In this document: piece after piece, positions 2,377 to 3,501 of the stretch | How positions within the stretch are numbered: the first letter of the stretch is position 1 | Layout: each line of letters starts with the position of its first letter | Origin: Verrucomicrobiales bacterium | GTDB taxonomy: Bacteria > Verrucomicrobiota > Verrucomicrobiia > Verrucomicrobiales > DEV007 | Reading direction: 5' to 3' | DNA length: 12,406 nt | NCBI GenBank assembly: GCA_007123695.1 | Contig: SLGN01000104.1 | Span: 1 to 12,406, forward strand | Made by a program: the position numbers and the translations under genes | The notes under the pieces: generated by a model | The model's input: only the letters and a program-made list of their open reading frames with translations | What the model was told of the DNA's origin: nothing | Database searches by the model: none

Positions 2377-3501
2377 TCACTGGTCGCGCAGATAGCCGTC
2401 GATCCAGCCGCGCGAGCCTTGGGGCGGGATCGAGTCGGCGGGATCGCTGCCGTCGGCGAGGCGGAAGGAGACCGCGAAGGGAAATTCGCCCGGCAGCGCA
2501 TTGCGGGTCAGGCGGCTCTCGCCGCGGAACGAACCCTTCGCGACGAGGTCGAAGCGCGTCACCGGTCCGCCCTCGCCATCGCTCTCGACGAAGCCCAGCA
2601 GGTCCGCCCGGAACTCGCGCGAGCCGTCGGCCGCGACGATGTGGATCCGGCCCGAGAGGCGCCCGTCGCGGAACTCGAGGGAACGCTCGCGAATCTCGTC
2701 CGTCTTCCACATCGGCGGCTCGCCGCGCGTGTTGTCGACGAGGTGGAATCGCGCCAGCCGCACGACGAGGCTGTCGTGCAGCTCGCCGCCGCGCAGGGCC
2801 TCGTGCTCGTCCCCGCGGATCCAGAGGTTGTCCCGGCCCATGCCTTCCTGGAAGATCTTCAGCCACGGGTCTTCCGTCTCGGGGTAGCCGCCAAGGACGA
2901 GGCTGTGGACGCGGACGACGAGTCCGTCGGCGGGCGGCGCCGGGGAGAAACGGGCATCCTTCTTCCCCGCCTCGAGCGCCGCCACGCCCTCGGGCCGCGG
3001 CCGGGCCAGCGACTCCCGCATCAGGCGCAGGAGCCTTTCGCTGTCGCGGTTGTTGTTGTAGCCAAGCAGGGTGCCGTCGGACTCCGCCACGTAGCGTCCC
3101 TGGGTGGTGCCGCCATCGGCCGGGCGAGGCCCCTGGTTGGCGATTTTGCGATAGAAATCGCCCTCGGCGTCCTGCTGGCGCCGCTGGTAGGCCTGGTCGA
3201 TCGCGACGGGCACGAAGTCGCTCCGCAGCAGGGCTACGATCTCGGGTTGGCTGAACGTCGACGCACGGTCGAGCACTCCGTTGTTTCAAACACAGCCCAA
3301 GGGATGGCCGTCCATCGCCCAGATGAAGATGGGCTTGCCCTGCTCGGCGGCGATGGACTGGGCTTCGAGCAGGGAAGTCTTCCACGGGATCGTCCGCCAG
3401 ACCTCGTCCGCGCCCGGCTGCAGCCGCTCGTGGAGTTCCTCGAAATCGGAAAGGGAGAGTCCGGCGACGGCGACGACGAGGGCGGGGAGCAGAGCGTTCA
3501 T
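2377..3501 (-). CDS. Thioredoxin-like predicted selenoprotein (in-frame TGA as Sec72)
   Basis: Read through the TGA at 3286-3288, this gives 374 residues. Residues 1 to about 18 (MNALLPALVVAVAGLSLS) resemble a signal peptide or anchor. Residues about 40-170 are thioredoxin-like: KPIFIWAMDGHPLGC, then Val71 and the UGA (Sec72), then NNGVLDR, FSQPEIVALL, FVPVAIDQ and a later strand ESDGTLLGY. This matches the Thioredoxin_7-type order, in which a Cys pair follows the KP-hydrophobic strand and precedes 'F-x-x-PEV...FVPV-x-D'. The UGA lies at the redox motif, giving Cys70-x-Sec72. Residues about 190-374 form a beta-rich domain I cannot name (VARFHLVD analogue LARFHLVDNTRGEPPMW; SIPPQGSRGW near the end). 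Two separate genes are unlikely, because the second half would begin in mid-domain. A Cys-to-stop mutation or a sequencing error remains possible. A SECIS-like hairpin follows the UGA. The true terminator at 2377-2379 is also TGA. Confidence 0.75.
3253..3278 (-). promoter_or_regulatory. Candidate bacterial SECIS hairpin
   Basis: As minus-strand RNA, the upper stem is UCGAC (3272-3268) with GUCGA (3262-3258), closing a 5-nt loop CGUGC (3267-3263). Below it there is one bulged C on the 5' side (3273), then five more pairs, 3278-3274 with 3257-3253 (G-C, A-U, G-U, U-G, G-C). The hairpin starts 8 nt after the UGA and the loop starts after 18 nt. Known bacterial SECIS elements, such as that of E. 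coli fdhF, lie directly after the UGA, have a G within the first two loop bases and often a bulge on the 5' arm below the upper stem. The fit is by eye; the folding energy was not computed. Confidence 0.6.
3286..3288 (-). other. In-frame TGA, predicted selenocysteine codon 72
   Basis: On the minus strand the codons read GGC-TGT-GTT-TGA-AAC-AAC-GGA. The upstream frame from the ATG at 3501 and the downstream frame to 2377 are the same frame, and no other stop interrupts them. The codon sits two residues after Cys70 in the thioredoxin-like redox motif, where a Cys would be expected in Cys homologues. Recoding is inferred. Confidence 0.7.

Follow-up and report, generated by a model that had tools for sequence, protein, structure and literature searches.

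What does a gene encode when a stop codon stands in the middle of its reading frame? A contig of a Verrucomicrobiales bacterium raises this question (assembly GCA_007123695.1, contig SLGN01000104.1, 12,406 nucleotides, hereafter the window), where an earlier reading from the letters alone, the sequence-only reading, had proposed a new thioredoxin-like selenoprotein with a Cys-x-Sec motif (Sec, selenocysteine). The coordinates that it gave were right; it had left the strand unstated, and the gene lies on the minus strand. The frame runs from 3501 to 2377 and, as had been proposed, holds a single in-frame TGA within one continuous protein, with 71 residues before the TGA at 3288-3286 and 302 residues between it and a terminal TGA at 2379-2377. 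From the comparison with its homologues, we conclude that this gene very probably encodes an exported selenoprotein in which UGA codon 72 would be read as selenocysteine. Its features are as follows.

2377..3501, minus strand: probable selenoprotein gene of 374 residues, Sec at 72, stop TGA at 2379-2377 (open reading frame and homologues).
3445..3501, minus strand: probable signal peptide spanning about residues 1-19, assigned by eye because the N-terminus is hydrophobic, as it is in the majority of relatives with inspected N-termini.
2989..3411, minus strand: thioredoxin-fold domain, residues 31-171.
3292..3294, minus strand: codon of Cys70, two residues before Sec, common in the family and not conserved (37 of 43 Sec rows, alignment A1).
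3286..3288, minus strand: TGA codon, residue 72, probably decoded as selenocysteine where helix 73-80 begins (alignment and model).
3258..3272, minus strand: core of the probable bacterial selenocysteine insertion sequence (SECIS) stem-loop, a 5-base-pair stem with the loop CGUGC (3267-3263) starting 18 nucleotides past the TGA (covariation).
2380..2946, minus strand: C-terminal domain, residues 186-374, mostly beta, unnamed (AlphaFold2 model of the domain alone, predicted local distance difference test score 94.7).

The in-frame TGA is a property of a family rather than of one gene. Among 73 distinct loci read with one TGA, the window gene included, the codon fell in the query's column in 67 and one or two columns away in six diverged members (L081, L141, L142, L144, L145 and L147), and it was kept in relatives down to about 25% identity. 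Duplicates (L034 of L019, L076 of L063) and loci that do not cover the place (L052, L074, L075 and L139) were left out of the counts. Whole-genome searches that read through stop codons detected members in 4 of the 383 genomes from the window's phylum, as five stretches with one TGA each, and returned a match in 90 of 322 sampled Planctomycetota genomes, with up to six matched stretches per genome; a scan of named genome contigs gave five loci, two from Verrucomicrobiales and one each from Planctomycetia, Planctomycetota and a genome called Bacillota. In one case two members, each with its TGA, stand next to each other on the same strand (L048 and L080; G425:C42:50037-51095 and 51148-52212). 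Seven diverged paralogues carry one in-frame TGA within other motifs (RCUVFAGAA in L142, L144, L145 and L147; DPLADCUTF in L146; GCUAAG and GCUTAG in L081 and L141) and, by their sequences, may represent separate selenoprotein subfamilies.

Downstream of the TGA, the family shares a stem-loop. In F-type members, defined by Arg at +7 and Phe at +11 (51 of the 73 loci, 49 distinct sequences), 236 of the 245 pairs of a 5-base-pair stem were formed, a count reached by none of 2000 shuffles, and sliding the stem partners by 1-3 left only 18-40% pairing. Pair 17/29, which joins third codon positions in the usual reading, was CG in 28 sequences, GC in 13, TA in four, GT in two and TG in one, with one mismatch, and the compensatory changes in the stem were synonymous. 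The loop is mostly CGUGC, CGUGA or AGGUU, and the full stem was present in 48 of 73 loci, compared with 0-2 of 71-73 at 19 shifted places in the same genes. A published bacterial SECIS model, as it appears in the consulted part of PMC13188914, places the apical loop 16-37 nucleotides from the UGA with G in the first two loop positions; 39 of 45 loci conformed to this loose model, compared with 26.6 ± 2.8 in synonymous shuffles (maximum 32, 20 runs). The covarying stem, with its loop at 18 nucleotides, is thus the stem-loop directly downstream of the UGA expected of a bacterial SECIS element, except in W-type members: in 18 W-type genes folded singly, hairpins lay further along.

Selection on the protein extends to both sides of the codon. 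Against its nearest relative (L017, in genome G383), whose protein is 82% identical, the window gene had a low ratio of nonsynonymous to synonymous divergence both before the TGA (0.106/0.550) and after it (0.092/0.562). The 15 codons after the TGA held one synonymous change, a small count, giving a proportion of synonymous differences of 0.095 compared with 0.396 over all codons past the TGA. Relatives keep the TGA, a conserved covarying stem-loop comes after it and the sequence on either side is constrained; on these grounds we regard the codon as beyond chance.

We then considered the selenocysteine machinery, which the sequence-only reading had proposed to look for. SelA was present in the window's genome (G000, contig C215, 501.9 bits, cut-off 267.9), and SelB and tRNA-Sec were found in its relatives. 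Across 40 genomes of the window's bacterial family, the gene occurred in 19 and SelB in 16: 14 genomes had both, five the gene alone (G000, G722, G730, G733 and G746, all 70-85% complete), two SelB alone (G713 and G739, 62% and 81% complete) and 19 neither. When only genomes at least 88% complete were counted, 13 had gene and SelB, 14 had neither and none was discordant. ARAGORN identified tRNA-Sec (anticodon TCA) in 21 of 27 Verrucomicrobiota genomes, including G383, G722, G730 and G733, and not in G000, G718, G728, G739, G743 or G746. SelA turned up in 30 of the 383 genomes from the window's phylum, namely in 4 of 4 holders of the family and 26 of 379 others (Fisher P = 3.1 × 10−5); the Planctomycetota counts were 84 of 90 among holders and 118 of 232 among non-holders (Fisher P = 2.3 × 10−14; threshold E 1e-70, 200 of 202 matches over the curated cut-off). 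SelB exceeded its cut-off in seven of eight further holder genomes, and tRNA-Sec was recovered in 30 of 38 chosen genomes, 12 of which were rechecked by ARAGORN and all proved to be tRNA-Sec; among the other eight, G240, G358, G371 and G383 yielded one at a looser threshold, which was confirmed.

Several observations weigh against the selenocysteine assignment. Neither SelB nor tRNA-Sec was found in the window's own genome assembly, which is 79.8% complete; the best SelB match, below cut-off, was judged on reading to be EF-Tu and adjoins a NusG-like frame, and the best tRNA-Sec match was a tRNA-Ser. SelB was likewise not found in G383, the exception among the eight holders above. These absences may reflect incomplete assembly. 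G577 holds TGA copies and had no SelA or tRNA-Sec match, and G446 holds TGA copies and had no tRNA-Sec match; incomplete genomes or divergent machinery could be responsible. Three further holders gave no SelA match: G385, which has SelB and tRNA-Sec, and G594 and G459, which both have tRNA-Sec; the family match of G459 does not reach the Sec place. The Fisher values overstate independence because the genomes are related to each other. The loose SECIS model was also satisfied by 18-32 of 43-45 loci at shifted places and is weak evidence by itself, a consensus structure sought in 17 distinct W-type sequences was not obtained, and the gene neighbours yielded no functional clue. Nevertheless, the UGA persists alongside a covarying stem-loop, and the lineages concerned possess SelA, SelB and tRNA-Sec; we therefore take selenocysteine to be the codon's most likely meaning.

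What might such a protein do? In an AlphaFold model, the sequence on both sides of the TGA formed one confident domain, in agreement with the single thioredoxin-like domain proposed from the letters, and Sec headed the first helix of a thioredoxin fold. The thioredoxin part matched the solved folds of AGR2/AGR3, ERp18 and the DsbD C-terminal domain, and in both model and matches the redox residue opens this helix, as in the thioredoxin-fold superfamily; we take this place to be the attacking first-Cys position of thioredoxins. The C-terminal domain, for which the sequence-only reading could name no family, gave no convincing structural match and reached no named family in the searches made. 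N-termini inspected by eye suggest that the protein is exported, and the place of Sec in the modelled fold, by analogy with selenoproteins in general, suggests redox chemistry there, most likely exported thiol or peroxide chemistry. In the mechanism that we envisage, the selenolate would attack an oxidised substrate (disulfide or peroxide) outside the cytoplasm, the Se-S or Se-OH product would be resolved by Cys70 in members that have it and by an outside thiol in the others, and the C-terminal domain would bind a partner or substrate. No conserved partner Cys was found elsewhere in the family. A selenoprotein of another kind, a glutathione-peroxidase-type peroxidase or a selenium or metal carrier instead of a disulfide exchanger, is a serious, if less favoured, possibility.

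It is far less likely that the locus makes two proteins, with translation stopping at the TGA and restarting at a GTG or ATG a few codons on. Listed gene calls do fit this picture. A protein search returned at least 1555 homologues (7996 candidates scored), and among the 120 listed, 119, including the window's own P0002, were downstream parts of 272-303 residues covering 73-80% of the read-through protein, the exception being P0022 with 406 residues. The downstream half had been said to have no proper start; in fact gene finders use the GTG at 3276, which yields the 299 residues of P0002. Searching residues 30-105 alone against 5.8 billion proteins gave nine matches: P0022, which crosses the Sec place with Trp, four upstream frames (P0122-P0125) that all end in GHPLGCT immediately before the TGA place, and four that are downstream parts, as judged from coverage and length. 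Two of the upstream gene calls (P0122 and P0124) carry an extra exported domain ahead of the thioredoxin part, which in P0122 had a weak cupredoxin-like match (18.2 bits, below cut-off). We attribute the division of family members to gene finders taking the in-frame TGA as a stop. Two separate products also sit poorly with a single confident domain spanning the codon, with the stem-loop after it, with the way the gene tracks SelB, and with L069 and L071, which lie in genomes without Sec machinery and retain a single uninterrupted protein with Ser.

The residues around the codon bear on its meaning as well. The Cys-x-Sec motif proposed as a signature did not hold across the family: Cys two residues before Sec occurred in 37 of 43 Sec rows of alignment A1, being absent in six, and in none of three Ser rows. 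Its replacements were Glu (L014, L016, L140, L143 and L148), His (L077), Ala (L079) and Asn (L137), and in L015, L021, L083 and L146 a Cys directly precedes Sec instead. What the family has in common is the pattern G-x-P-(4)-U, in which Sec stands alone and usually precedes Asn-Asn-Gly. Homologues had also been expected to show TGA or Cys at position 72; TGA was found, Cys was not. Eight homologous loci cross the place without TGA, with Ser (L065, L066 and L068-L071), Asp (L064) or Arg (L067), the residue in L067 and L069-L071 depending on the alignment because the loop before Ser is longer in L069-L071 and a Cys directly adjoins the Arg in L067. A profile search with alignment A2, biased toward such forms since 8 of its 25 rows are non-TGA, found ten full-length database proteins, all of them with Ser as read by eye and with a lipobox-like stretch close to the N-terminus. 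As L065 and L066 are among the ten, there are 16 distinct non-TGA forms besides P0022, none with Cys at the Sec place; the search with residues 30-105 gave none either. The DsbH-like L072 (CxxC, Cys at the aligned place, weak match) and the chance match L073 were left out of this tally, and the claim is confined to the family because remote CxxC relatives such as L072 exist. Genomes G471 and G515 have Ser at the place and neither SelA nor tRNA-Sec. P0127-P0136, with L065 and L066, form a clade with Ser for Sec and a lipobox-like N-terminus; L065 and L066 themselves sit in genomes (G623 and G673) that possess SelA and tRNA-Sec.

Where Ser, Asp or Arg stands at the place, the Sec chemistry has probably gone. 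A larger proposal, a large selenoprotein superfamily with chemistry that Cys cannot perform, in which Sec either persists or gives way to Ser, Asp or Arg without passing through Cys, strikes us as evenly poised between right and wrong. Cys-containing homologues, a usual trait of selenoproteins and a search criterion rather than part of their definition, were not found for this family. In the consulted part of PMC12013277 (2025), such homologues are described as now seeming to exist for all known selenoproteins, and its own method as one that may overlook selenoproteins without them.

Decoding of the UGA as an ordinary amino acid such as Trp, by reassignment or leaky decoding, is again very improbable. 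The Trp of P0022, known from a protein record alone, is what a gene call with TGA as Trp would give; against this, the window gene itself terminates in TGA, no locus read has TGG or a Cys codon at the place, and the gene co-occurs with SelA and SelB. Least probable of all is a dead or misread gene with a chance stop, an idea that the fragmented window assembly (759 contigs) invites and that the identical codon in 73 loci from many genomes, purifying selection before and after it and the covarying stem-loop speak against.

Beside the selenoprotein gene, the window holds a Uma2-type putative endonuclease gene directly downstream (1780-2325, minus strand) and, directly upstream on the opposite strand (3568-3771, plus), a remnant-like piece of a 2OG-Fe(II) oxygenase (24 bits, cut-off 27).

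The conserved TGA, the covarying stem-loop and the joint occurrence with SelA, SelB and tRNA-Sec thus strongly support the proposal of a new thioredoxin-like selenoprotein; the searches reached no named family. None of 11 members scanned passed any NCBIfam 20.0 or Pfam cut-off, and Table 1 of a 2026 review (PMC13188914; 119 families and subfamilies) has no entry matching by name, motif or domain. At the level of titles, abstracts and passages we found no earlier report of the family; supplementary tables may list members, possible places being Table S9 of PMC4807772, which according to the part consulted gives selenoprotein candidates of two Planctomycetes, and a groundwater study of selenoproteomes in metagenome-assembled genomes cited in PMC13188914. 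We rate the family as new, with an unusual lack of Cys forms: a large, unnamed group of redox-type proteins, exported and most likely selenoproteins, that occurs in Planctomycetota and Verrucomicrobiota. With it the selenoprotein catalogue gains a widespread member, and nature supplies an experiment on why selenium is needed in some proteins, since Sec has given way to Ser and, in the forms encountered, never to Cys. The family also points to a blind spot in discovery methods that rely on Cys homologues.

How does the family compare with known systems? Classical thioredoxins and disulfide isomerases carry CxxC, UxxC or CxxU, whereas this family has U-x-x-G and no conserved Cys or Sec partner at that spacing. 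The window protein scored under the Pfam cut-offs of 27 for Thioredoxin_7 (PF13899) and Thioredox_DsbH (PF03190), from which it differs by Sec in place of the attacking Cys, the lack of CxxC and an added C-terminal domain. The CxU selenoproteins tabulated in PMC13188914 (Table 1; such as thioredoxin-like Sec.1 PF13192, rhodanese-like form 3 and UshA-like) share with most members a Cys two residues before Sec; going by the table's descriptions they have other domains, and the Cys of our family is not conserved. Nearest by profile is the VPGUxxT family (NF041382, NF041383; hypothetical protein OS_HP5), likewise thioredoxin-like with Sec. Its similarity to the window protein is weak and limited to the N-terminal part (residues 37-106, 13.7 and 13.8 bits, E about 0.03), far from the cut-offs of 350 and 275 bits that mark membership, and its motif reads VPG-U-xxT where the new family has GC[VT]-U-NNG.
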